Source of the DNA: Pomacea canaliculata
Taxonomy: Eukaryota > Mollusca > Gastropoda > Architaenioglossa > Ampullariidae
Direction of reading: 5' to 3'
Length of the DNA stretch: 64,000 nt
NCBI RefSeq assembly: GCF_003073045.1
Contig: NC_037593.1
Coordinates: 24,423,868-24,487,867 of the forward strand
Shown here: in pieces, positions 22,772 through 60,687 of the stretch
Position numbering within the stretch: position 1 is the first letter of the stretch
Layout: each line of letters begins with the position of its first letter
Made by a program: the position numbers and the translations under genes
Notes under the pieces: generated by a model
Database searches by the model: none
The model's input: only the letters and a program-made list of their open reading frames with translations
What the model was told of the DNA's origin: nothing

Positions 22772-25700
22772 CTAGCTGTCATCAGAGGCTTCTGTGTAAA
22801 CACTTTTGGCGATCCAAGCTCCACATCTGCACTTGGCTTCATCTTCATCTCTCATAATCTCAACTTTAAGAGGACATTTGTGACACTGGTACTTCTTCAG
22901 CAGCTCAACCTATAAAAAATTCCTATTTTAATTATTGTTATTGTTAACACAGCATGTTACATTACAGCATATAAATAAAGAAGCAGGATTAAGAGTACTT
23001 TTTATAGACCTTACACTTATTCAGCACTTCTTAGGCACCAAGCCCAGTACTTCTTCAATGCCAAAGGAGGAATATGTTTTTCCAGTACTTGGAAAAAAGT
23101 AGTTTAATTTAGGTAGTAATGGCTTCTCAAGGAAACATCAGCATTCAGAAAGCATGATGACAGTTGTGAAGAATGGAAATACTTTCACTGTGTGTGTTTG
23201 GTAAGCAGCTACTCTTCGGCAGAAGAAGTGAGGTGAAATCATCAACCAACCCAAACAGAACTTGCAGATAAGTTGTTTACCTTACCATTATGGTCTAACA
23301 AGGGTATGTTGCCAAGTGTTATTATCGAGGATACTTCCAGCAGGGCCACACCAGCGCAACAGAAAGAATGTACGTATTCTAGGTTATATAGATGCAGATC
23401 AGATGAACCCAGGTTGCAGCCTCCTAGCAAAGCTAGAGCAGTGCATGACCAGCTATTTGGTATGGACCACACCAACCTCTCATCTAGGAGAAGTCCAGGC
23501 CTAAGAAGTGTGCTTGAATGTGGAGTTCATTGTTCCTATTAATACTTAATAATATTTCTTGTACACATAGCTAGTGAATCGGAAGAAGTTCTTTACTCTT
23601 CACATACCTCAAAAGCTTCGTATCCATGTTCCATTGTGAAAGCCAAGTGGAACTGCACTCGATATCCTGCATATCGAGAACCTTCCAAGCCAGCCCTGAC
23701 AGGAATATAAAATACTTCAACCAAGCTTCCATTCCCATGGAGATCAAGGTCAACATAGCCAGCCAACTTGTTATCGTTCTTCTGCCTGATGGTACCTTTG
23801 CAGGTAGCTAATTTAGCTCGGGAAATGTCTAAAACAAACAAACAGCAGTAAATATAATTTTCTGTTTCATCCATAAATGTGTAACAATAAAAAAAGACAT
23901 TTACCCAAACAATTTAAGAAAAAGGTGCATTATTAAGTGCACACTTAAATGCACCCAGAAACTATATATGGCAGATCTAAAAATGCATCAAATTTATTTA
24001 TATAATTTAATGACCTCACATTTTAACTTTTATCCTAATATGTACTGATTCTGATATTTTGATTTCTACTGCAATAAATGGCAAAAATGGGAAATTTGTA
24101 TTTTTATTTTTGGATCATGTTTTTGGATTGACATAATGTACTTTTTCACTGTTACTATGACCTTCTTTTTTTAACCATTTTTTTTGCAAGGCTCGATCAG
24201 CTCTAAATTTTAAGCTGTTATATGCTGTTGAAAGTCAGACTGTCATATAACTCAGGGGGTGTACATTTCCAGCTTACCCATCCCAGCTAAGACAGAAGTA
24301 ACAAACAAATTAAGGACTACAGAGAAAAAAATTATTACTACTGCTGCAGAAAGACCATGCTCACTGAAAAACACTCGCATCAGTGCTCAGAGGTTGACGA
24401 AAACATGGGGATGATTTACCAAAAATATTTTCAAAGTGAAATTTTCAGACAAGCAACATAAAGAAAAACTTAAATTGAAAGTGGCTCATGTCATAAGCTA
24501 AGTGCTGAGTTACACACATTCCATTTGCGTTCAGGCTGAGAGTACATATGTTATACTTCTTTTTTTTTTAAATATACACATAAACAAATATTTTGACAGG
24601 CATCATGAAGAAGTGACATTTTGGCAATTAACAGCCAGTAAGATAAAATTTGTTGCACAGAAAGGAGCAGACTGGTAACTTTGGCGATTAAATTATAGAT
24701 TAAAGGGAAGACAGCTATAACTTTTCACAGGAGCTATACCTAAGAAAGTCATATGTTGCATGTCATGAGTAGTTGTATAGTGCCAAAAGGTCATTTCTGC
24801 TGCTTAGCCAATTAAATAATTAACAACTAGCGCCTAAAAAAATAATTCAGAAAAATTCTTATTTTAATAAAAGCAGAAAGCTTAAAAAAAAAAAAAAAAG
24901 CTGACCAGTTATATTGTACCTCAGGTACCAATTGTAAAGCAAATAAAATATAGTATTTTTTTACACACATCTCTATTAGCTTAAAAGCATAAGTCCTAAA
25001 GCCCTTGGCTAGGGTTGAAGTTCAGGTACCCATTTTTTAATTTTTGGGCAACAAGAAATAATAATTACTGTGATAGTGAGCATCATAATCTTTTTATTAA
25101 ACGGTTTAGAAGCATAAGTAGTGTTTATTTTGCTAATACATACAAGTTTTTTTAATTTCCTGGCAGATAAGTGCCCAGTTTATTCATGTGATATAAAAGT
25201 GAACAGTTGATAAAGTAGTTTATGACTTTTTTTTATTGCCATTCATTTGTGGAAAGTAACCGTTGGTTACATTTGAAAGATAAAAACACATTTTTTAAAA
25301 AGATTGAATTGCTTCAAGGAGAGCTGCATAATGGAGTTTATTATCTTGTTATTGCTGCTACTGTTATCAAACCCAGTCTATGAAATTGTGAAGCTAGTCA
25401 AATGTTTCATTCATATATCTGACTTTTTCACTTTGCTTTGTTTTTTTTTTTTTTTTAACAATGTCTACTGTTGTGTGTCACAGGTCAACTTGGAAACATG
25501 ATCCTGCCACATAAGCATTTTCATTTCAACACACACACATATTTTTCATTACCAACTTGCTCATCATTGCTTTAACAAGGCTACTGGAGTAAACGTCAAA
25601 ATACCTCGAGAATCAGCATGTGTTATACAGCAGGATGTCAGAATTTCTATTGCCTTAAAACAACCTCTGATATATAAGCATGTCATCATGAAGGATGACA

Positions 25701-28700
25701 ACACGTTTATATATAAGTATGCTTAATGTAAATGAGACCAAGATATTCAGCCTCATTATAAATATGAACACTGACTTATTTTAAAATTCCATAATTTTTT
25801 TCGAGTGTTAGTAAACACTTTAGATTTTTTAGAGTTTCAGATATATTGTCCCCAAATTTTGTGAGATAACCTTTTATTTTTCGATGAGTATCATATTCCA
25901 CAGCTTTGCTGGGCACCAAGCGTCGAATGCCTTCGATGTCTAACCTTCCCAGCCATTCACGTGGATATTTTGGGCGAAACATTAAGTTCCTTTTCTTAAG
26001 AATTTCTCCACGCAGAAGTTCAAGAGCCTCTGTTAAGCACTCTGTATTACCTACGAACAAAAAAATTTTGTAAGAAAATCAGCACCAGAATTCCCGCTAT
26101 AATAGCTCTCACTGTTGTCATTATACTTTTCCGTGTTTTTCTTCTTACTATTTTATGTAAAATCGTTGAAAGAGCAAAAAGTTCAGACTGTTAAAGCCAT
26201 TGGACATTCAAAAATCTATTATTCAACAATAAGAATATATCAACTTTTATAATCTACGAAACAAGTGTTATCCTGTTTCTTCAACCATACATAACAATTG
26301 AAATTAAAAACTTTTACAGACCTGGCTGTGTTTTACTGCCAAAACCAATAAGACTCTGAATAATGAAGAGGTAGAGTGTAGATTTGGGACTGTTGATTGT
26401 ACTTCTCCAGTTTCTCACATGCTCTAGAACTGTCTCCAGGTTGTAAACCTAAAGTAAATTGATATTTTACTACATCAGACTCATAAAATTATTTATTCTC
26501 AAGTCTGCTCAAAGATTTTGTTTCTTCTTTGACTGTAACAGATGACATGACCATAGGAGATAAAAGGTTACACGTAACTCTTTAACCAAAGAAAAGTTGT
26601 GTCTCTGACAGTAAGCTAGTATATATGTGCCTGGTGTGAAGAGGACTCCCCTGGTCAGGTAAGCAACTGCCCTCTAACAGCATTAGGACAAACACATTTT
26701 ATGAATAAAAACAAACACACAAACACACACACTCTCTCTCTCACTCTCTGGATCAGTTGATAAAGAGAACGCAGGTTATTTTTATATATGATGATGGACA
26801 GGGTGCGAAGGGTTCTTAATGATCTTTAAGCCTTCTGTTTGGCATGTGATGAGAACTGAATGCAAATGTACTAAAATTCACTGCTCGTAACCCTGGAGGT
26901 TGATTTGACAATTTGTTCAAGCTGGTGTTTATCATGAGCAGTTATACTGTCATACCAAACTATGAAAATCAAACGATGCATTCAATCACTGCATGAAATA
27001 ATCATGCCATGTGCTCTCTAGACTTCACCCCTAAAAGTAGTTTTATTTTCAGTAATAAGACCTTTGATAGTTGTGCCATCAGAGAATTGTGACTATGATA
27101 ATATGGATACTGCTGATGATTATGCTCTAATGAATAGCAAAGAGGATGTTACTCTCCATACAACAGCAAAATCAATCTTCTTATAGATATAAAGTTTGTA
27201 ACCAGTAGCCAAAAATGCAAGTATATGCTCATTCACTGTAATTATGAAGGCTGAGAAATTTAAAAAGGTCATACATCTAGGCCATACTAGATGATCTGTG
27301 AAATTATTTAAATCTACTTGAATTTATACAACTAAAACACATTTGTGCAAAAATGATGTGGAATCCAGAAAAAGTATTTCCACAAGCTGAAAATGAGATC
27401 ATCATGCACAGAAGCTGCAATATCAAATGGTATCATTCAAATACTATTATTCGCTGGTCCGTATAACTGAGGTTTAAAGTTTTTAATATTTTCCTCCCTA
27501 CCTTACAATCCATTACCACCCTTACATTCACACACTATATACACATTCGCTCATACATGCAATAAACTTCATGTATGCAAAAAAGCTATAGCAGCAGTAA
27601 CATTTAAAAAGTATATACTCTTCTATACATGAAGCAGAGATCCCCTATGGACACCGGCTCATGTACTTTGCACAAACTAAAGCTAACACTAATTTACACA
27701 AATAAAAAAATATGCACTTATATCCCTCTATTCACTTTCTTCTAGAGATTGCACATACACTTCTCATATTAAACGCACATTTAGCTTCAGATGATTATTA
27801 ATTGCACACTTTAGGTGCATTACAAAAGAACTGCAAAAAACGCAGGTGTAAGTTAAACAACTAAAAATGGATATAGTCAATAATGAAGTGTGCCATAAGA
27901 TACATAAAATAGTTCTTACTTTGCAATTTGGGTTTCGAATTTCTGACAGCCAGTTGAGGTAGGTCACTTCCAATCTTCGTTTCGGCATATCTTTGTTGCA
28001 GATAATAATCTCCAGATCCTTTACTAAACTGTTGACTTGAGCTGGTGGCATTTTATGTTCTACTGACATGAAATTGTCAGAAAATGTAACATTCAGCTTG
28101 CGGACCATGATATTCAACCTCAGTGAATTCAGATCATTGTCTGTTACATATGCCATCAACTGTGATGTACATGGCATGAAAAGGTTTCTAAACCAGTTTT
28201 CCATCTTGTACAACATTGACATATCAGAAGTATCAAGCACACTGTGACATTCCATGATAAGATCTTCAATCTCCACCACACTGTCAGTAACAAACTTTTT
28301 GTTTTTATCAGTGCTACTGCTGGACAAGTATGCTGTCAGTCCACCCTCAAAGTTGCTCCGAATAAAAGCACAAGCTTTCAGCCGAACTCTAATTTCATCA
28401 ATGTATGTGTACGTATCTTCACACCCTGGTTGTGTGTAAGATCTCGACAGTTCAAAATATTCACATGCTTTGACTGCATTTTGAATAATCTCATCCAATC
28501 TTTCATCAAATGGGGCTTTCTGTGTGGAGACTTCTGAACTCTTATCCACATATTTAGAGATCCGGCGAACAAACACCATTCCATACATATGGTAGACATG
28601 CATCAAAGTTAGTTTCAAGCTGTCTTCTATTTCAGTGGGCTTTCTTTGTCCTTTTCTATCATTGCATAGCTTTAGAGCTATCTGAAAATGTTTTTCGATT

Positions 28701-31700
28701 TCTTTTTCTTGTTCTGGTCTACAGAAAGAGTAAATACGACCCAAATGGGCTCTGAAATTAGGATCCCCTGGGAAAGCTTCACACAGCTTTTCCACCACTT
28801 CAATGCGCCCAGTAAATGGCGGATGTGCATCTACATCATTAACAATTTGTGAAAAATTATCCCTTCCTTTCTTCTTCATGCTTGTCTCTGCCTCATCTGT
28901 GTCATCACCATATTTATTGTCACGGAAAATAAATGTTCTCGTAAGAATGGATACTATTGACTGGGCTGTGACTGAATTTGAACCCTTTCTATTTTTTGAT
29001 GAAGTGTGACTGATGAAATCCAGGCAAAACTTTTTTAAGTTTCGTTTTGCCCCATAGCTCAGTCTTTCACTCATCCCATGACTTTCGGGAGGGCTATCCA
29101 CTCTGTTCAGAATCTGTTCAAGAATTTCTTTAGCAATAATGTAGTGGATGATGCGAATGTGTTGCCCTCTTCCCTCATTTGTGTCTGGAACCACAAACAC
29201 TGTCATCTCTGAAGGAAGGTCATCAATGTCTAGCTTAACATCAGGTTCATAACCCAGAATCCGAGAAAAAAACTGGCAAGGCATTGATGTATGCCCATAG
29301 TAAAATACAAGTGAGAGGAAACCAACACATTTCTGCCATGGTAACATTTCTCCAACATTTTGTTCGAGCTGAAGGTATCCTTTTACGTATGAACGGACAC
29401 CTTTGAACTCATGGCTAAAAACTGTCATTCCATATTCATACATCTGATGATCAATGCCTTCCTGGACATCCATATTAAGATCATTCAGAGCTTTTGTCTT
29501 CTTTTGGTCTTCATCACACACCTTGCTAAACTTGGCCACCAAACCACTTGATTCCGGTTTTGTTACAGTGCCCCTTAAAATAAATTCACTTTTGGTCAGG
29601 TCTGGTTTTCTCCGATCGCTCATCAGAAAAGGATATCTCTGTACATGCAGAATGACAACATATGTATCTTGCAGAAGCATGGACAGCTGTTTTAAGCGTG
29701 GCATATCTTCTCCATCAATCAGCGCTACCACTGGTAGATGAGTCTTGCTACACAAGGACCTTAGGCGTTCTGCTAACTCTTCCAATGGTGACCCAGATCG
29801 CAATCTCACCTGTACACATGGTGCTGTTTTATGCAAGTCCCAGAGAATACGTTGTGCCATGGTGGATCCACCAGATCCTGGAGCATGACTGATTGTAACA
29901 ATCCCACGTTTAAATTCTTGAATGTAGGTCTTTTCTATGTGTTTCTTAACATCATCTGAGCTGCTGCGCTTCACATCCATTGAGTACTCTTCTGTGAGGT
30001 ACCACACATGCCATGGTAAACTTCCTCCACGAAAGAATGTTTCTTTTTCTGAGCTAATTTTTTCCTTTACTGGATAAGGATTTTGTAAGAACAGTATTTC
30101 AAGATCCTGCTTAAGCCATGCATAATCTTCTTCTGAGAGGCTGATGATTTCTGCCCCATCTGCTGCTGGAAGAAGGTATGCATTAGTTGCCTGCTGAACA
30201 TCATTCTCAAAAATTAGGTTAATTTCACTGCAGAGTTCACCAAGGTCAATGCAAAATGTCTCGATATTACCTTTAAAGTCATTCTGCAAGGATTTGACGT
30301 TCAGTGATTCTGCATGGATTGTTCTGTAAGACAAAGGACAAGTTTTGGTTTCATTTCTTCTTCAAGCATTTCCAATTGAAGTGTCTCCAAGAACTTTTTA
30401 ATACATGCTGCCTCTAATTCAGAAGATGGCCATAAGACAAGAATGTTTAAAATTGTGTAGGAAAAAGTAAATGCTGTCAGATGTTGACAAAGTTTTTCAA
30501 CTTTATCACGGACACACTGAAACCAATGAACATGAGTTGAGGCTTCACTGGCTTTTATGCTGTCTGGCTCATCCCTGCGACCTCGCAAGCACCACCACTG
30601 TGTACTCTTTTCTCCAAAGGATGTTGGAGCATGGCACCATGTCTTAAGACTTAGACTTCTTTTCTTTTTGATACTTTCCTCCAGCATGCCCAGAAGACCA
30701 CAATCTCTTCCATAAAAATCAAAATCACAAACAGCCACCCAGGGTGCCTTTGACAGACTTACCACATTCTTGCAACTGATTCCTATTGTGCCACACACAA
30801 GAACAAAATGCCCTTTCTTGAAGTCTGTCATTTTCTTAAGAACTCTTCGCTTCTACACCACCAGACTCTTCTCTGTTTGAAGTTTTGAAACTGTTGTCTT
30901 TTCAGATGATATATGCTTCTGCTTCAATTTTTCTGAATATAGGACAGGGGTGATGCTTTTAGTCAAATGTTCAACTACATTTTCTGAGCACTGAAAGAAA
31001 CTAAAAATTTTATGTTTATCAAATGCATCAGAAACATTCATATTTTGGTGATTCAGTCTTGCCCAAATCTGGTTTTTTTGAAAGGTTGGGGCCATGTCAT
31101 TGCTAATGACAATACTAGGGCCTCCATTGTGGTTTACATCAATTTCTAGCACACCAACCAACTTTTCTTTGTAATTTGTCTCCCTATATGTATAATCTGG
31201 TTCTGGCTGAAAGATACCCCTCTGAAACATTGCTTGGTAGATTCATCCATGCTATTTTCTAGACCTACCAGCTTGTGAGGTTGATCTTCTCTTGCTTTGA
31301 CACCAATAATTATGTATGCAGTGTCTTCTCGTGGTGTGTTTCTCAGGCTTACAATATCTTGCCATAAATTGCTGTCTGTTTCTCATGTATGTTTCTCCAG
31401 ATTCTCTAAAAATGGTAGTGTTACCAGGCGAATTCATAAGAACCTGTTCTATTTTCCTCTGAAGAGGACTTAATTTTGATTTCATCATCGGATCATGTGT
31501 ACATTCTGTTGCTCTTTCTTTTCCAGCCAGTAACTTCTGAGTTTTTTTAACCTTTTTTTCTTCATTTAGTGGTGTCCCTCCAATCCCTTCTTTTTAATCA
31601 TTTTTCTCCACTTTGGCTTTAGTGATACGGCAAATTCTTTTCCATTTGACATATTGACACTAAACAGTGACTCTTCCTTCAAAAGATACTCTAAAAAGTC

Positions 31701-32566
31701 TTGTTTATAGAAATCCTTAAAAGTTAACACTTGACCCAAGCGTTTGCTTAGCTTTTTGCAAAGCTTTTCTCTCCACATCTGCTACTGCTACAGGTTTTGA
31801 CCACTTTGGTCCAAAATTTCAATAATAGCATGGAGTAATAAACTATCATCATGTGATATGGTCTGAATATCTGGAAAAAGCAAAAAATGATGGATGTATA
31901 GTCTTCATTTCATGAAAGCAGGTACTGCAACTTTTAGGAAAAGATTAAAACTTTTAAACTAATGAAAGGGCATAGATGATTCCAAATCTGCAAAATTTGT
32001 TTTAAATAGACTTTATGAAATGATAATTCAAAGTTCCTATTTAAAAGTTAATTCTTAAAAAAAATATTTTGTTCTTTATAAATATATAGTTGATAGACAA
32101 TTTCAAACTTTTAATCATATAAGTAATGTAAATTGAACAATGTGTTTTTCTACAAAATAAACTGAAATGCGATATTTCTTCACCTCACCAGATCTTTGTT
32201 GTCTTGCACCTGTGTCTGTGTGTTCTGAAAGATGTTCATTATCAAAACTTTTTGTAGTTTTTTTAAATCTTTTGGCGCCATCTTTTTCTGTGGTTTCAGG
32301 AGAGGGAGCAGATTTTCTAGATGTGGCTGATCTTTCAGTACAGCTTCACGGAAGATTGAGTAAGCCTGATCAGGTTTATATTTAAGTTTATCGAGGATGA
32401 ACCTTACTTTCTCTTCATCGCCTGATGTTTTCTGTAGCTTGATTTTTTCTTCATGATTAAGAACATTTTTTGAAAATAGAATATCAATGACGCCTGGTTG
32501 TGGGTCAATTTCCTGCACAAGGTCTGCATAGCCGGTCTGGATTATTTTGTATAATGCTTCAATCAT
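22772..32566 (-). CDS. CARD-containing SAMD9-like STAND NTPase (copy 1)
   Basis: Homolog of vertebrate SAMD9/SAMD9L, cytoplasmic antiviral STAND-type proteins. Proposed exons: 32189..32566 (CARD), 27920..31870 (main body), 26322..26448 (127 nt), 25871..26050 (180 nt), 23608..23828 (OB-fold) and 22772..22909 (C-terminus, stop at 22772). Order in the body: a Schlafen/AlbA_2-like part, a SIR2-like part (PWVAVCDFDFYGRDCGLL), a P-loop (HAPGSGGSTMAQRILWDL, lacking the usual lysine), a Walker B-like VVALIDGED, a helical-repeat part, then the OB-fold. The last exon ends with CHKC-x14-CRC. From 30334 down to 27920 the frame is intact for over 800 codons, but from 31870 to 30310 it is broken by several frame changes and in-frame stops. 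Introns (22910..23607, 23829..25870, 26449..27919, 31871..32188) hold no other gene. Either it is a decaying gene or the sequence here has errors. Confidence 0.85.
23262..23560 (+). other. Unassigned coding-like island within an intron
   Basis: Within the last intron of SAMD9-like copy 1, a GC-richer block keeps two overlapping plus-strand frames open, for example one with KECTYSRLYRCRSDEPRL. I recognise no domain. It may be a transposon-derived fragment. Confidence 0.2.
27920..31870 (-). CDS. Main exon of SAMD9-like copy 1
   Basis: Begins after TTTTTCCAG at 31871 and ends at CAAA/GTAAGA at 27920. Disruptions visible by comparison with the plus-strand copy: two in-frame TAG codons at 31782..31790, a frame change near 31566..31600, a gain and then a loss of one base near 31380 and 31228, a TAG at 30853, and a one-base loss near 30310..30334. 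Downstream of 30310 no lesion is seen to the end of the exon. The paralog shares the FKDFY, RNR.QF..DIVSL.NTP, TYRE...KLVG.LEI, KGHFVLVCG and GRD.GLL blocks. Confidence 0.85.
32189..32566 (-). CDS. CARD domain exon
   Basis: A 126-codon exon starting at ATG 32566, shortly after an acceptor TTGCAG. It ends at a donor CTG/GTGAGG at 32189. Residues 1 to about 90 have the six-helix CARD pattern: MIEALYKIIQTGYADLVQEI, then GVIDILFSKNVLNHEEK, then SGDEEKVRFILDKL, then DQAYSIFREAVL and PHLENLL. CARDs are death-fold adaptors that assemble homotypic signalling platforms. The remaining residues are a basic linker. The exon ends in phase 0, whereas the next exon needs phase 1 (as in the plus-strand paralog), a mismatch of one base. 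The link to the SAMD9-like body is therefore likely but not proven. An independent short CARD gene is the alternative. Confidence 0.75.
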
Positions 32567-32619
32567 TTTTCTTTGTCTGCAACAGAAACAATTGATGGCT
32601 CTGGAAGACATAGTTTCAC

Positions 32620-32705
32620 CTGTAGAAGTGTTTGCAGTAGTTCAAGCAAGAGTCAGTCAGCTTCCTGCAGTACCAGTGTACAAGAGGCTGATGCTGCTCC
32701 TGCTA

Positions 32706-32747
<42 letters not shown>

Positions 32748-33800
32748 ACGACGACGACGATGACAATGATGACGATGTTGATGACTGGACTGATGTTTTC
32801 TAACAGCAGGACAGGAATACAGTACTAATGCCAACCATTTCTTTGAAAGCAGACCGATGTGGAGTGTCAAATAGGACAGCTGCGACAATCAGCACAGCAC
32901 CATTGGTGGACTATGGCAATATTAGCTTGGAAGACCGCATCAATATTGTAGATCATCACAAAGTATGGAGGGCTCAACAACAATTGAGAAGGGCTATCAG
33001 GGAAATTCCTAGAAACAATTGAAGCCATGGCAATATTTTTTATGGCCGAAAAGACTTGACACTGGTAAGAGAGAAAATGGGAGACCTAATAAAAAAAATT
33101 GAAGAACTCTATTTAAGGGTTGGTGAACCTGGAACTTTCTATTTGTGTCATTTAACACTGGAATGAGGCACAAGTTTTGTTATTGCTGATAACGTTCACA
33201 GTGCAATTGAAGAAAGGGAAATTACAGACAAGATCATGGCAGTTGGAGTCGACAGCACAGCTGTGAACACTGGGCACCATGGTGGGACAATAGATGTTAG
33301 AGCTTCTACTCGTCGCCCTTTACAATGGTTTATTTGCTTTTTACACTTGCACGAGCTTCCATTCCGAAGCTCTGCAAAACTCTCATTGGTCCAACTGAAG
33401 AACTCACACTGTGGAAAGGACCAACTGGAAAATGCAATGACATCATTGCCACTTTCTTCAGGATTTCGACTCATTGCCGACGGTGATCCTCTTCATGAAA
33501 TCGAAGTCAGTGAAACTTAGTATTGACCAAGCCTACCTGTACAAAATGGTCACAGCTATAAGAAGTGGAAGCATCAATGACGATCTACTGCAGGAAAAGC
33601 CTGGGCCCATCTCGATATCCAGATGGCTGATAACTGCTAGCAGGATATGTAGCTGTATGTGGCAACAGCGCAACCAAGTAACAAACTGTATTCCCTGACA
33701 CACTTCATTGTCTCTTGTTGGACCTACATGGTTAAGAAACAAGTGTACTTGGCCAAGATTTGAGGGGATCGGCTCTTCTAGATTTTGTTTATGTTTTTTG
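32620..33800 (+). pseudogene. Decayed transposon-derived ORF of a multicopy invertebrate family
   Basis: Several plus-strand frames join into one degenerate protein: ISLKADRCGVSNRTAATIST, then YGRKDLTLV, then VGVDSTAVNTGHHGGTIDV, then RRPLQWFICFLHLHELPFR, then ISISRWLITASRI. This order matches an uncharacterised, high-copy protein family in aphids, cnidarians and molluscs, with a D...NTG block reminiscent of hAT-type RNase H-like transposases. An in-frame TGA after LCHLTLE and frame changes near 33020 and 33480 show it is dead. It abuts the CARD exon head to head, so it sits in the promoter or 5' untranslated part of SAMD9-like copy 1. The hAT link is an inference. Confidence 0.6.
32701..32785 (+). 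repeat. (CTG)n(ATG)n(ACG)n compound microsatellite
   Basis: Trinucleotide runs that, in the plus-strand frame, encode polyalanine followed by polyaspartate. They lie within the decayed transposon-derived ORF. Confidence 0.95.
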
Positions 33801-52091: not shown

Positions 52092-53172
52092 TGAGTATGG
52101 TTGGGATCTGATACACCGCGGATTGAAACATTGGAAAGTGTTTTAAGTTATGAGCTGAGAGATTGATATACCTATATAATTAAAAGTAGAGACTATTGCA
52201 TTACTAGATGTTTACTTATCATAGATGGTTTTGATCATCTTCCCTAAAGAACTGTGCGTTGAGACATCGTCTTTATAAATAGATCTATCTGTATTCTATG
52301 TCGTAAAATCCTGAGCAGCTTAATATTATGATGTGGATAGCTTCAGGCAATCGTTGTATTTTGTGCTGAAAGAACGTGTACGGACTTCGTGTGTGTGTTG
52401 CTCGTGTGAGAGCCGGCGTCCGTGACATGTACACATATACACTGTTATTTAGATTAACATTTATAGTATTTGTGCTTTTTGGTGTGTCAAGTGGCAGTTA
52501 TTACCAACATCTACATCAGCATCACCCGTCTGTGACAAACAGCGATTACCCTACAACTGCTTTCGACAGCTGTGATTTTCTGCACGTTTGTCAGACACAG
52601 TTTGTCTGGTTACACTATAGCTTAATGTGGAGCTGACCACCTCGATCGCAGAAGACGATGAACAAGTTTATCGGAAACCTTTGTTTTGTTTTGGAAATTT
52701 GAATTCGAGGTCTTTAGAGCCTCCTGTGCTCCTAGGGTCAAGTTAGTCTTCCAAAACCCCAAGAAAAAGCCTTCTTCAGTTCTGTGATTTTGTTTGTTAT
52801 GGTGTATATTATCCTTGATGGTATCCAAAGAATAAGAACTCTACAATATAGTTACAAAAATTATAAAGGGATTTCCAAGCACACGCAGACACACGAACAA
52901 TGTATGCATACGACACAGATCTCAATCACTCACCATTTTTCATCTTTGCATCTGAAGAGCTAAAGACATATTTTTAAAGAGCCAAAGACTAAACATGATA
53001 GGGAAGAAATTTAAATTAACTATTATCTGCTACATTTATATATTCAGATGGTAGTTGCTTAGCCACAATAATATTGATATTTCACTTTCTTCACCAATTC
53101 CTATACCTTTGCTGTGGGCGTTTCCTTTTCCATACATTTAAAACATTTGTTTCCTATGTTTCAGGATCAACA

Positions 53173-56100
53173 ATGCCAAAGAAAAAAGTGAAAAATAGAA
53201 ACAAGAAAATACAAGAAGTTAATATTTCAGAAGTGAAACGCTTGGACATAAGCGTCATGACTATAACAGGTTAGTTTTTTGTTTTGTTTTGGTTTTTTTT
53301 GGGTTTTTTTTTTGTTGTTGCTTATTTTCAATGATTTAAAACTAGAAGTTTTTAAACGGTTTGATTATGTAAGTCAATATCCCTGTAGATTTGTCTGCAG
53401 ATGAAAACGACTACACCATTATATTTGAACTAATTTCTATTCGCCTCTTTTTAGGGATAGACAAGTCTGAACAAGTTACAAACGACCTGCTCGTTGCTCT
53501 CACTACTAACATCTTGGATCAGTCCGACTTGCCAGAACAACCTATGAGTTTTCTGGAGCAGCTTGTATGCGAGAAGCTGCGCGAGGTAACAAATTCCGAC
53601 GTGTTACATTTTAAAGATTTCTACACGCATCGTTTTAAGCAATTTCTTGAGCAAAATGTGTCACACTTCAACCTGAGACAAAAAGGAAACAGTTTATTTG
53701 TCTCGAAAGTTGATAAAAGAAAGACAGAAGAAGGAGCGAGCCCACTATCTGCTTGTGTTACTCAAGAAGCCTCTCATATTGCGACGGAAGTCCAGTCAGC
53801 GAGCTGTAGGCTGGAGAGCCTACAAAGTGAGCGCGTCCAGTTTGACGAGGATGTGGACGATGAAGAACAAGAGAACGACACTCGGGACGTACAAGAAAGC
53901 CGAACATTAATGGACACCACAAAAGTCACATTTCACGGCGAATCTGGACAGATGGTTGAAAATGACGATGCTGTCGTAGAACACCTCCTAAACCAGAAAG
54001 AAGACGATTTGCACATTTTCAAGCGATCTCGGGAAGACTACACGAGGAACCGTGTGCAGTTCACGATTGACATTGTTAGCTTGTGGAACACACCTCATCG
54101 CCAGCGAGCCTATATCGTGTTAGGTGTCAAGCCTCGAATACCAACACCACACGCACTGATTGGCTTAAGGTCGTCCACCAACCCTGAGGTGTACTACAAC
54201 CTGGTTTTAAACGACCTGTTTAACTTCAAACCAAAATTTACTTACCGAGAAGTTTCATGCCGTAAAAAGCTTGTTGGGATCTTGGAGATCTGTAGTAACC
54301 ATGGCGAGGGATCCCCAAGCATTGTAAACAACGACGATTGTAAGCCTCATCTCTGCACTAACCAGCTGTGGATTCGGAGACAAGGCACAAGCATTGTTTT
54401 GCCACCAACGGATCCTATGTACAGGCAAGTTCATCTCTGGTTTGGACAGCACAAGTCATCTACAGCAAACGCAGATTACATAACAGAATTAGTCGAAGTG
54501 AATACATCAAATTCGAAGTCTGCTATTCACCCACAAAGGAAAAAGTTGGAAGATCTATCTATCGACAAAACTCTGGCTGCTTCTCCAGAAGACTTGACGG
54601 CTAACTGTGCTGGGAGTGACATTGAAAGGCTGATGACATCGCTGAAAAACTTCAGAAAGGGGCACTTTGTTCTCGTGTGTGGCAGCATGAACATCCCTAT
54701 AAAAACATCGATGCTTTGTCCACTGTTCCCTGGATAGCTGTGTACGATTTTGATGTCTACGGCAGGGACGCAGGTCTCCTGAACAGAATGGAAGATGGGA
54801 TTAAACAAAGACGCAATCTCAGTGTGTCCAGCTGGTGTGATCCTCCCACTGGGATCACAGAGAAAGGAACGCAGTGGTGGAGTCTGCGAGGCCGACGGGA
54901 AATTCCGGAGAGTCTGACATCCATCAGCTCTCATTCTGATTGGTTCAAATGTGTAAGGGAAAAACTCGAAAAGCTCTGCCTCTGTCTTGCACAGTTTAGT
55001 GAAGATTACACTGTTGTAACAGTTCTCTTGCTGTGGCCTTCCTCGGAGTTTGAAGCACGCTGCATGTACAAGTTCTTGAGCAAACTTCAGGAGTACACTC
55101 AGCCACATATCATTCTCTGCTTTTCAGATCCAAACAAGTGCTTTGTTGAGTCACTTCAAGTGGAGAAGCTGAAGGAAGACTTTGAAGACTCTCTAGAAAT
55201 CTTTATTGTTCCTCTGAATGACATTTGCTGTGAAATTGAGCGCCTCACCCTTTGTAATGGGAGTCTGACACATTTTCAATACCAGCTTCCTTCTGATGGT
55301 AAATCGGTGTCAGTGACTACTAGCGACGCTGCTTGGCTGACACAAGATCTGGAAGTGCTGTACCTTGAAAGTCCGTACACAAAGAGAGCTCTGACGGCAG
55401 AAGACCTTCATAAAGAAGCAGAAGATTTTTTTCGAGGAGGAACACTCAACTGGTATGCTTTATACGACATCGGAGCAGGCTGCTTAGATGTTGAACGAGG
55501 CATCTCAAACAAGATTGTCAAACACATTCGTAGCAATCACATTGACGTATTCAAACCGGGTAGAATAACAATATTTCATGCTCCTGGAGCTGGAGGATCT
55601 ACAATGGCACAGCGGATATTATGGGATCTACATGAGGAAGTTCCTTGTGCTCAAGTGAAACTGCGGTCAGGGTCGTCAATGGAAGACGTGGCCAACAGGC
55701 TCAATTTTCTCCATCACAAGACCTCTCTGCCCGTTATAGCTCTGATCGACGGTGAAGATGAACCAAGGTTAAAGCAGCTGTCTCTCCACTTGAATAGCAG
55801 TTACGTTGTCATCTTTCACGTCAAGAGATACCCGTACCCAATAGACGACTCGACACTCAGACAGGGTTGTTTCTACTTGAAAGGCGAGGTCACTCAACAG
55901 GAGTCACGAAATCTTGTGCTCAGATTTACGCAGCATTGTGATGAGAATGAGAAGAAAGAAAAACTGAAAGAATTGGACAAGGAGGTTCGCAACGGAAGTA
56001 TGCACTACATGTTCGAATATGGAATGACTGTGTACAACCATGAATTCAAAGGAATTCAGTCCTTTGTGAGTGGTTACTTGTGGAATGACAACACACGAAA

Positions 56101-59100
56101 AGAGCTTGATCTTTGGCAAAAATATCTTGGCTTTCTCGCACTTGTCTACTATTATGGACAGTCTTCCATGCCATGTCAGTTCTTTGCTGGTCTCCTTCCA
56201 GGCCGAGGCCAGAGCCAGTTTCTGGATGTACAGGACCTGCCATACTCGATGAGAGTGTTCATTGTACCCGACACCAACGAAGCCAGGGTACGTTTTATCC
56301 GCATCTGCCATTACATCATAGCCAAGGAGATACTGGAACAAATATTGTACAGGGGAAACAGAAGTTCAGCTCGAGGATCAAATTGTCATCTGAGCAGAGA
56401 AGCAAAGGGTAACTTGAAGGATTTCTGCATTGATTTTATCAGTGAATGTGCAAAGCGTAAGCCAAAGCGTTCTCTGACAGCTCAGACCATAACGAGTATC
56501 CTAGCCCGAACATTTATATTCCGAGATAACAAAGATCTCGGTGACCTAGAAGAACACGAAAAGAAGAGGAAGCCACAGTTTTCTCAAATAATGTTCGACT
56601 TGGATCAAAAACCACCTTATCATGGACGCGTTCAAGTTTTGGAAGCACTGTGCAACACGTTTCCAGACGATCCCAACTTCAAGGCGCATCTTGCACGTTT
56701 CTATTCCTGCTGTAGACCCGAAGAAGAACAAAAAGCAGAAGACCTCTTCAAAGAAGCGTTGAGATTATGCAATGAACGACGCGAGAATCGAGAGGGCGAT
56801 GAAGGTTTGGACTTGACCTTAATGCACATTCATCACATGTTTGGGATGCTGTTTCAGAGGCGCGTTGCCAAATATACTGGCAGAAATCCCGAAGACGGCC
56901 CACAGCAGCCAACCAACGCTGCCCAGTTTCAAGAAAGGCTTGACGAAATCGTGCAGAACGCAAACAAAGCTTGTAGTAACTTCATGCTCTGTAGAGAATA
57001 CACTCCCCGTGGACACGAAGACTGTTATCAGTACATTAATGAAATCAACGTTCGCCTACAGACCTGCGAATTCGTTCGCAGATTCTTCAAGGGAGGCATG
57101 CCAGCATACCTCTCCGAGAGAAAGAGCGGACAAAACGTTGATTTTATCAGAGAAAGCGTGACGGAGATAGAGGATCTCATTATGGAGTGTTACAACGTGG
57201 TGTTGCTTCATATTCACGACATCTCGCTCCAGAAAGCCGTCTTGTGGTACGCGGATCTGTTTCACGGTTGTAGCGACCAACTTAGAGCTCTCGTTGTCGA
57301 TGACTCTTTATCTTCTCGACGATTTGAGCTGATAGCCAAAAAGCTTGAATTTTCTCGCAAGGACAATTTTACTTGCGTTGATGCCTCTGTATCACCAGAA
57401 AAGATCGCTAGCCTTGTCCAGGTGCTTGAAAGCATCTTTGACCATGAAAAGATGTACAATGATTCACCCAAGTGCAAAATAGAGCTGGACTACAAAGACT
57501 GGCTGATGGCAATAAGAAACCCGTGTTTACAAAGAGTAAGTGCATTCAACCTTTATGCCTCTTAAAACGCTTTTTGAAAACTTTTATCGATAATTTATGA
57601 TCAGGATAAGACACTTTTAAGTTAAGTTAGCTTCAATAGACTACTGAGAAATATATAAATAAATAAACGAGTGTGGTCGAAAAATGGATAATAGATGAGC
57701 AGAAGGGTGAGAATCAGCTATAACATGCAAGGTTTAATACTTATTAATGGTAGGGTAACTCGTATATTGCTGGGAGGTATTTTTTTTTATTAATAACGTA
57801 GAGAATAATATGTTGAATGTTATCTTAGGTTTACACACTGGAGGAGGTTGTGGCTCGAGTCAGACATTGGCACGAGTCTGTTCGCAGTCCCCAGTCATCC
57901 TTCTACCTGTTCATTCTGTTGAGTCTTCTAGGATTCGGAAGTGTATCGAAAAAGGGTACGTAATTTAGTACTTATTCATCTCCCTTTCTAGGTGCTACTT
58001 TTACGTGTGGTGTCTTGCATTGTATAAAATACCTTGAATTTTAATAGTGTCAGTGTTGATATTTGCATGACCTGACAGACTATCTGTTTCTGTAACACAT
58101 GTAGAGGGACCAGAAATTTAAATGTGGACAACACTGTACTAATAAAAAAAAATGGAAACAAAGTTTTAAAGGTTTTTTTGTCCGTTACGCTTCATCCATT
58201 TTCCAAAAAAAAAAAAATCAAATATTAAGAATTCTTACAGATTATAGGAAATTAGAAGTCATCTGTTCAACACGATATTTGTGACAATAAGAGGGGATAA
58301 CAGACTCCTTCCATCTTAGTCAATAAATTTGCTCTACAGGGAACAACGAGAGTCTTCTAGAAGCTCAGATGTTGCGGGAGGAAATGCAGAAGCTCAGCAA
58401 GCTGGTGGTGCGTCCTCGATGCCCTCGCGAGTGGCTCGGCACATATGACTCCGAAGACATCCGGCGCCTCGTGTCTAACAACGCCGTGGGTCACGTGGAC
58501 AACCGAAGGATCAAGAACGGTGAACCCCACAGAGTTTTACGCAACTTTAACAAATACAATTTATACCAACTACATTTAGATTATCTTCATTAAGTGAAAG
58601 AAAGTTTAATAATTGTAAATAAAGTACGATCAAGTAAATATGTCAGATTTATTGGTTTGGTCTGTAACATGTAGATTCCCTAGGGGTTTTAACACAGACG
58701 TACAGGTGGACTGTTGTCTGCTAACACCAACGCTTAGCCTCTTGCGAAGTTCTCCGCTGCTAGTTTCGGCGAGCCTAAACAATGAATGTGAATAAACCGG
58801 AAGCTTTGTGCAGACCTGCCTCGTTTTAGTAGTTAACTGAAAAAATCGTCTGCCAGCAGTCAAGTAGTTCAAGGTCGTGGTTTGTATAAAAAATAACGTG
58901 CGCTTGAACAGCAGTAACTCATGCGAATAAAAAGTCGAACAGCTTAAAAACAAAAGTTCCTGCGGTTACTAGTTTAAAAAAAAAGACTTGCTAAAATTAA
59001 CATCGAATTAAAGGAATTGCTTAGATCCTTATCCGCAAATAACGAACAGCCAGAAAAATATGATCAGACAGAACACAAATATTGCTCCATACTCTTAACG

Positions 59101-60687
59101 GACGCATGCACTGCACGGAGAAAAAAATATTTTAAGCCTAACGGTAATAGGGCTACATAAAAGTTATTATTATTATTTACAAAAGTATTTACCGCTTCGT
59201 CCTTTTCTTCAATACTCTGTTTTGTTGAAACAACTTTACTGATAATGTATAGTTAAGATTTTTGTCTGTTTACCATCTATTCAATACAGGTTATTCCAGA
59301 GCAAAACTTGCCGTCTGCAAGGGAACTATTTGCCCAAAAAACAAAAAGGTTGCAGGAGAGATAAACCTTGACCTCGGGGAAAACTGCACACCTGTCCATG
59401 TCTTCTACGTCCCATCCTTAGTAATCTGGAAGGTTCACGGTATGTAGGTGAACGGGTACAGTTTTACCTGGCCTTCACGCTTCAAAACGGCTACGAGGCG
59501 TATGAGGTAAGTCATGAAATGGGTCACCATGTTGGCTGTGAGGTAGGCAAAGATGCTAAATACTACGAGATATGTCATAACGTGAAAAGTCTCTTATGCA
59601 AACAGCAATTGAACAGAGCGATCCTACACCCTAGCTGTCACACCTTGATTCAGGGGAAATAATTAATGCAAGCGAAGAAGAAATTGTTTTGAGTTGTCGT
59701 CTAGTAAATGTGCGCACCATCATTTTCCTGTGCATATTATCTTTGGAGTGTTCTTGTATATGCTATTTTTTTCTTCATAAACTGTATTTGTTTGAAATTT
59801 TAATCCTAGTAAATCCAGTGGATCATTAGTACCTTAAGTGTAAGCTTGGTCAGCCTGATTGTCAATAAAATAAATTTCAATTGGGAGCTTCATACAAATA
59901 TTGCCTTTGAGCATAATTGTGTTCTAATATTCAAGACACTTTATAAGAATTAATTTATCTGACTGCATTTTATTAATTCTGTAACTGCCGACAAAAATAA
60001 AATAAGGCTAACAACAAGGCTAATAAGAGTTTAACAAATCAAAGGCATAAATATTTTTTAAAATTCACGTATTATCAGCTGGTCTTCAGATTATCCCAAT
60101 GCTTAGGGGTATTTACGTAAGTACAAAACATTCCAATTTTTGGAATCAAATTATTTTCTTAGAATGACAGCATAATCAATACATAAAAATGAAAACATCC
60201 AAATACTCTATTAAATTATCACTATCGTAAGATCAAAAACAGAATACTGCATCGGCATATAAATCGTGGTTGGGACAATATTTTCTCTAAAACGTGAAAG
60301 TGTGTGTTAAAATGAAAAAAAACAGTGCTAATATATGGATCAAGTGGATCAATCATTAAATAAAAAATAAATGTATTACTAGGTAATAAAAAATGAATAA
60401 CGACGTTTTCACAGCTTTACAGATATATTTGTGTTATTTTAAAGGCCCTGTGGTAGTTGTGAGTCTAAAAATATTTCATTTTGTCATTCCTTTCATGTGT
60501 GGTAATGAAAGCCGTTTTGCTTTCGTGTTTACAGGTAAATCTATTAGACAGGTACCGCTGTGACGTATGTAGCGCCAAGGTAGAGATGATGCTGGAAGAA
60601 GAGGAGACAACTTGTCATTGCGGCTCAACTGTTACAAAAAACGAGCATGCGGTGATAAATCGAAGTCCCGCAGATGAAGACTCGTAA
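53173..60687 (+). CDS. SAMD9-like STAND NTPase (copy 2)
   Basis: Second SAMD9/SAMD9L homolog, inverted relative to copy 1. Exons: 53173..53269 (coding part; start MPKKKVKNRNKK), 53389..57535, 57829..57955 (127 nt), 58340..58519 (180 nt), 59290..59506, 60535..60687. Order: lysine-rich N-terminus; Schlafen/AlbA_2-like part at about 53990..54320 (TRNRVQFTIDIVSLWNTP..KLVGILEI); SIR2-like part from about 54640 (KGHFVLVCG, PWIAVYDFDVYGRDAGLL); P-loop at 55575..55620 (HAPGAGGSTMAQRILWDL); Walker B-like VIALIDGED near 55738; helical repeats to 57535; OB-fold in exon 5; CDVC-x14-CHC in the last exon. About 1,640 residues. One base seems missing at an A run (54701..54705) and another near 59412..59420; homology continues across both. 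No CARD or SAM domain seen. Confidence 0.9.
58685..58830 (-). repeat. Dispersed repeat family C, inverted copy
   Basis: Within intron 4 of SAMD9-like copy 2. The minus strand reads AACTACTAAAACGAGGCA, then GCTTCCGGTTTATTCACATT, then GGCTCGCCGAAACTAGCAGC, then ACTTCGCAAGAGGC, matching 37125..37275. Its tail, GGCTAAGCGTTGG, also matches family B copy 2. Confidence 0.8.

Follow-up and report, generated by a model that had tools for sequence, protein, structure and literature searches.

The question raised by the DNA studied here, a 64,000-nucleotide stretch of Pomacea canaliculata (NC_037593.1, 24,423,868-24,487,867; called the window below, with positions counted within it), is whether an exon encoding a CARD domain belongs to the SAMD9-like NTPase gene that lies behind it on the same strand, and whether a fusion of the two can be read from this copy. 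The window holds a pair of inverted SAMD9-like paralogs, copy 1 on the minus strand, in which the CARD comes first, and copy 2 on the plus strand. We consider it likely that copy 1 is the CARD-first member of this pair and that it was ancestrally a fusion gene; as assembled, it is broken.

The CARD exon (32189..32576, minus strand) was delimited by its domain match, splice sites and phases. Its reading frame runs from the ATG at 32566 to a GT at 32188, the last exon base being 32189, and is open throughout the domain. In this frame the Pfam CARD family (PF00619) scores 43 bits (E 4.5e-11) against a curated cut-off of 23.9, so that the identification of 32189..32566 as a good CARD, made earlier from the letters alone, is borne out. 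The exon is likely to begin at 32576, a little before the ATG, where an acceptor-like AG precedes it; such an AG is found shortly upstream of the CARD-exon ATG in window copy 1 and in four further SAMD9-like loci of this genome (L036, L037, L038 and L039). At the other end, a candidate donor, CTG/GTGAGG, follows 32189 in phase 0 of the CARD frame. The snail CARD profile matches the CARD of Apaf-1, and when the predicted model of the window CARD was used in a structure search (Foldseek), 40 of the 50 matches listed were CARDs, in agreement with a six-helix death fold. Two trinucleotide repeats are located at 32687-32784, about 110-210 bases upstream of the exon.

Behind the CARD exon, a putative intron of 318 bases (31871..32188, minus strand) leads to the next acceptor-like site, which opens the following exon at 31870 in phase 1. 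The front part of this second exon (30856..31870, minus strand), recognized by frame-aware alignment to copy 2, comprises the counterparts of a predicted winged helix, a linker and an AlbA-like region. It is followed on the same strand by a region that is SIR2-like by position (30304..30852, an open frame of 183 amino acids that is 51% identical to copy 2 across 150 aligned columns) and, in a different frame, by an open frame of 865 amino acids (27764..30361) encoding a STAND-like P-loop NTPase and the downstream body, with 51% identity to the body of copy 2. The corresponding pieces of copy 2, on the plus strand, are the front part of its exon 2 at 53455..54689 (winged helix at 53457-53756, acidic linker, AlbA-like region) and an open frame of 979 amino acids for the NTPase and body at 54626..57565; there is one frame change between them, near 54690-54710, in a stretch that includes a run of five A. 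Copy 2 matches solved SAMD9 chains over the NTPase with an E-value of 2.4e-11. The family signature given in PMC5445408, a GG[ST] P-loop with an upstream His, is present in the form H..G.GG[ST] in all six SAMD9-like loci of the genome, and both window copies have GGS with the upstream His. The sequence-only reading had the next same-strand exon, 318 bases from the CARD, start the SAMD9-like body; the spacing and the SAMD9-like frame stand, but the body is not one open exon, being interrupted by frame changes and stops.

The connection between the CARD and the body emerges from comparison with the rest of the genome. Searches with two SAMD9-like queries gave the six loci mentioned, two in the window, one on C6 (L036, at 3,022,000-3,028,400) and three on C10 (L037, L038 and L039), and a genome-wide CARD scan gave 40 matches, of which 27 passed the cut-off. 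For four of the six bodies, a CARD exon that passes it lies immediately before the body in the same orientation, and the broken locus L038 has a sub-cut-off one upstream of its body; the chance expectation is 1.5e-4 CARDs per body within 5 kb. In L036, L037 and L039 the CARD exon ends at a phase-1 donor, which meets a phase-1 acceptor of the next exon. The CARD has a kinship of its own as well. A tree was built from 17 full-length CARDs out of the 40 matches, with partial matches, matches without a locus and the broken CARD of L038 omitted. Among these 17 the nearest relatives of the window CARD are those of L010 (E 4.1e-15) and L006 (E 1.8e-13), both SAMD9-linked, the best other being at 9.3e-8, and the tree groups the window CARD with the same two (support 94/93 and 82/85). 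Because paralogous loci have the same layout and the CARD has this kinship, the exon can be regarded as heading a SAMD9-family locus. Thus, the window CARD very probably belongs with the SAMD9-like body, and from these comparisons we conclude that the two are parts of one locus by descent; presumably, they were also joined on one transcript. The earlier claim of a CARD fused to a SAMD9-like NTPase is supported with respect to the layout of the locus, but not for copy 1 in its present state, in which the frame is broken.

Several observations weigh against this interpretation. All eight GT sites examined behind the CARD (32319-32100) are in phase 0 or 2 and none is in phase 1; the acceptor at 31870 is therefore consistent in phase with the paralogs, whereas the donor is not. 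A straight join of 32189 to 31870 does not keep the frame of the body and runs into a stop after 166 residues, so that this obvious splice would not yield the fusion from copy 1 as assembled. It is possible that the second exon starts instead at an alternative phase-0 acceptor, ATTCAG/ACC at 31862, which pairs in phase with the CARD frame, although the paralog exon has a phase-1 acceptor; phase 1 would also result if the frame shifted in the linker that follows the CARD. The nearest paralog, copy 2, lacks a CARD and begins with a short exon, and no CARD was found near it either in the genome scan or in a search of the window's open fragments of at least 20 residues with the snail CARD profile (next best E 1.3). 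The predicted structure of the CARD is of low confidence (predicted local distance difference test, pLDDT, 57), and the Foldseek E-values are 0.46 or worse; a single-sequence phmmer search of the CARD against the PDB, with E up to 1, returned 11 sequences and no CARD among them. In the tree, the three-CARD grouping falls below the 95/80 mark, the window row is on a long branch, and the SAMD9-linked CARD of C6 is placed outside the other three, so that a single origin of these CARDs does not follow. Finally, aligning the second exon of copy 1 to copy 2 requires five changes of frame from 31799 to 30855 and meets two stops, the second of them at 30855. With one more frame change, at 30301-30361, the front 1.57 kb holds eight lesions in all, six changes of frame and two stops.

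The short exon with which copy 2 probably begins its coding sequence (53165..53269, plus strand) has an acceptor-like AG, an ATG at 53173 and 32 codons, and ends at the phase-1 donor ACAG/GTTAGT. It is thus flanked in the same manner as the CARD exons, yet has only 32 residues. Its likeness to the linker of copy 1 in the CARD frame (32293-32231), which would speak against a shift of frame in that linker, is weak and at chance level (E 1.4).

The broken state of the front part of copy 1 means that one intact transcript is not readable from this copy. The genome search with the N-terminal part of copy 2 likewise found a counterpart in copy 1 that includes one TGA and two TAG codons. The alignment of the copy 1 pieces to the whole front part of copy 2 was poor and was left out of folding. 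The pattern of lesions would fit a fault of assembly at this spot as well as decay limited to the front part. The window copy may be a relic in decay, or a working gene that was poorly assembled here; both are variants of the explanation proposed above.

If copy 1 were a true pseudogene, its CARD exon and rear body would be leftovers and no CARD-SAMD9-like protein would be made, to which we assign a little less than an even chance. Six frame changes and two stops are themselves in line with such decay; moreover, three of the five mapped frame changes lie away from any homopolymer run of four or more (their positions being approximate), and a C10 relative, L038, is broken too. On the other hand, none of the eight lesions falls outside the first 38% of the coding span, and the 865 codons at the rear form an open frame; under even decay such clustering would be expected with a chance of about 5e-4, for a boundary picked after the fact. 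The open frame of the CARD exon also sits poorly with decay.

The same clustering would be accounted for if copy 1 were a working gene whose front part had been poorly assembled, with indel errors left over from the long reads of a heterozygous genome, and this possibility falls just short of an even bet. According to PMC6129957, the contigs were obtained from PacBio reads, corrected with Pilon, and derive from a highly heterozygous genome. When the assembly was searched at the DNA level, no further copy of the broken stretch turned up, so that it is without an internal cross-check, and the single frame change of copy 2 occurs in the stretch with five A. Nevertheless, other members of the family have open frames of 1645, 1582 and 1553 codons (the last being the downstream frame of L039) in the same assembly, two of the lesions are in-frame stops relative to the paralog, one of them in the poorly aligned linker, and the majority of the mapped frame changes are not at homopolymers. 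That the CARD exon is instead a separate neighbouring gene, brought beside the body by chance, is very improbable: it would agree with the donor phase mismatch and with the existence of copy 2 without a CARD, but the C6 locus and three C10 loci repeat this order and strand, and the window CARD is closest to SAMD9-linked CARDs.

Taking copy 1 as an ancestral CARD-first gene, one may ask what stands between its CARD and its NTPase. The suggestion that the CARD replaces the SAM domain found at this position in vertebrate SAMD9/SAMD9L was not borne out, and we rejected it, since in other loci a CARD exon occurs together with a SAM or SAM-like region. Behind the CARD exon of L037, SAM_2 is matched at L037:7491-7850 (-) with 27.9 bits (cut-off 20.5), and SAM-like regions in the same place at L038:5494-5997 (+) and L036:6509-6838 (-) remain just below this value, with 19.2 and 19.4 bits, respectively. 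In the window genes the SAM position is taken by the predicted winged helix, the model of which agrees with a winged-helix fold, and neither the front part of copy 2 nor its counterpart in copy 1 gave a SAM match; outside vertebrates, SAM does not define the family. In L039, a reverse transcriptase frame of the opposite strand (RVT_1, E 5.8e-35) at L039:3665-5089 (-) lies within the presumed SAM exon. The third SAMD9-like gene of C10 (L038:4483-7372, +) has its CARD, SAM and body frames all broken.

The remaining domain labels, AlbA-, SIR2- and TPR-like, are putative, given on weak or positional grounds. The AlbA-like region of copy 2 matches SLFN_AlbA_2 with 17.3 bits, under the cut-off of 25.3, and aligns poorly with L036, L037 and L039; AlbA_2 is absent from some members of the SAMD9 family, according to PMC5445408. 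The scanned window pieces gave no Pfam match to TPR, SIR2 or OB, and sub-cut-off TPR matches were found in L037 and L039. A PADLOC search produced one match, to the candidate family PDC-S50 (27.2 bits, E 4.8e-7), which covers residues 169-227 in the front part of copy 2 (53961-54137, plus strand), at the start of the AlbA-like part. An NCBIfam search gave nothing above a cut-off, and a PHROGs search with two copy 2 pieces gave no match with E up to 0.01.

The ancestral gene would accordingly have encoded, in this order, a CARD, a LOTUS-like winged helix, AlbA-like and SIR2-like regions, a STAND-type P-loop domain and a TPR-type body. In Apaf-1, CED-4 and NLRC4, nucleotide-dependent oligomerisation clusters CARDs, which recruit CARD-bearing caspases or adaptors. 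By analogy, a signal of infection, received by the C-terminal body or by the nucleic-acid-binding parts, would likely free the NTPase to oligomerise, and the CARDs clustered in this way would undergo homotypic assembly and recruit a CARD-bearing caspase or adaptor. As in these three proteins, the CARD of the snail genes precedes a STAND-type P-loop domain, and the rear part is long. They differ in that the NTPase is of SAMD9 type, without the P-loop lysine, and in that AlbA-like, SIR2-like and winged-helix parts are placed between the CARD and the NTPase.

A more tentative idea, which we find possible but rather doubtful, is that the front end of SAMD9-family genes behaves as an exchangeable exon cassette bounded by phase 1, and that the window CARD exon may have come from a C10-type SAMD9 gene: the window CARD is 35-40% identical to C10-type CARDs, and the NTPase only about 26% identical. 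The variants of such a cassette would be CARD with SAM (C6 and C10), CARD with a LOTUS-like winged helix (copy 1), and a short basic start with a winged helix (copy 2). If this were true, copy 1 would represent a CARD-armed, winged-helix-bearing sensor of a kind without description in the literature compared. Comparable grafting of N-termini in immune sensors is reported in PMC8998645 for lophotrochozoan RIG-I-like receptors, which acquired varied CARD, Death, DED and SAM N-termini by exon-level domain grafting, but these belong to a helicase family and not to SAMD9.

A CARD on a SAMD9-like protein is in itself of a known kind, since Mekhedov, Makarova and Koonin (2017; PMC5445408) reported it for invertebrates in general; they described CARD, Death, Pyrin and FIIND domains on family members from fish and invertebrates, listed Mollusca among the phyla with homologs, and proposed an apoptosome-like particle. 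The GG[ST] P-loop, the upstream His and the N-terminal CARD of non-vertebrate members are shared with the snail genes. The differences are the CARD followed by an over-cut-off SAM in L037, and the winged helix of the window, which is not mentioned in the part of that text consulted. The statement therein that SAM is limited to vertebrate members does not hold for L037, as far as its predicted domains show. CARD together with SAM on mollusc SAMD9 genes, and the winged-helix branch, are apparently new: in one open-access library no paper joined SAMD9 with a LOTUS domain, and queries for SAMD9 with Pomacea, or with molluscs and the CARD domain, gave nothing on-topic among the matches listed.

Human SAMD9 chains (9zjr, 37ht, 7ksp and others) are matched by the L037 body over most of its length (E 3.5e-73), by the L036 body over about 60% of its length (E 3.5e-59) and by copy 2 over the NTPase. 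The snail loci differ from them by the CARD exon in front and by partial retention of the acidic and basic tRNase residues. Of the seven residues listed as important in mammalian SAMD9 in PMC12331169, L037 retains three and L036 one, as read by eye from printed alignments; for the window copies the alignment is too poor to judge. If snail CARD-SAMD9 proteins are made, a family known for translation shutdown in mammals would be tied to the caspase-recruiting death-fold network, and the apoptosome-like proposal of 2017 would become testable in an animal with CARD-bearing members. The presence of CARD and SAM in one protein would argue against simple mutual substitution of these domains, which that proposal assumes for vertebrates.

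The rear of copy 1 probably includes two further exons on the minus strand, a C-terminal one at 25779..26078 and the last one at 23596..23913, with counterparts in copy 2 at 58327-58590 and 59372-59659, the frames having been compared by eye. No Pfam family scored above its cut-off in these two pieces or in the SIR2-like region of copy 1. Outside the window, 85-125 kb upstream of it (C4:24301340-24339310, +), CARD matches of half length cover roughly the profile positions 37-84; there are six, of which two pass the cut-off, and they suggest a cluster of genes from another, intron-split CARD family.
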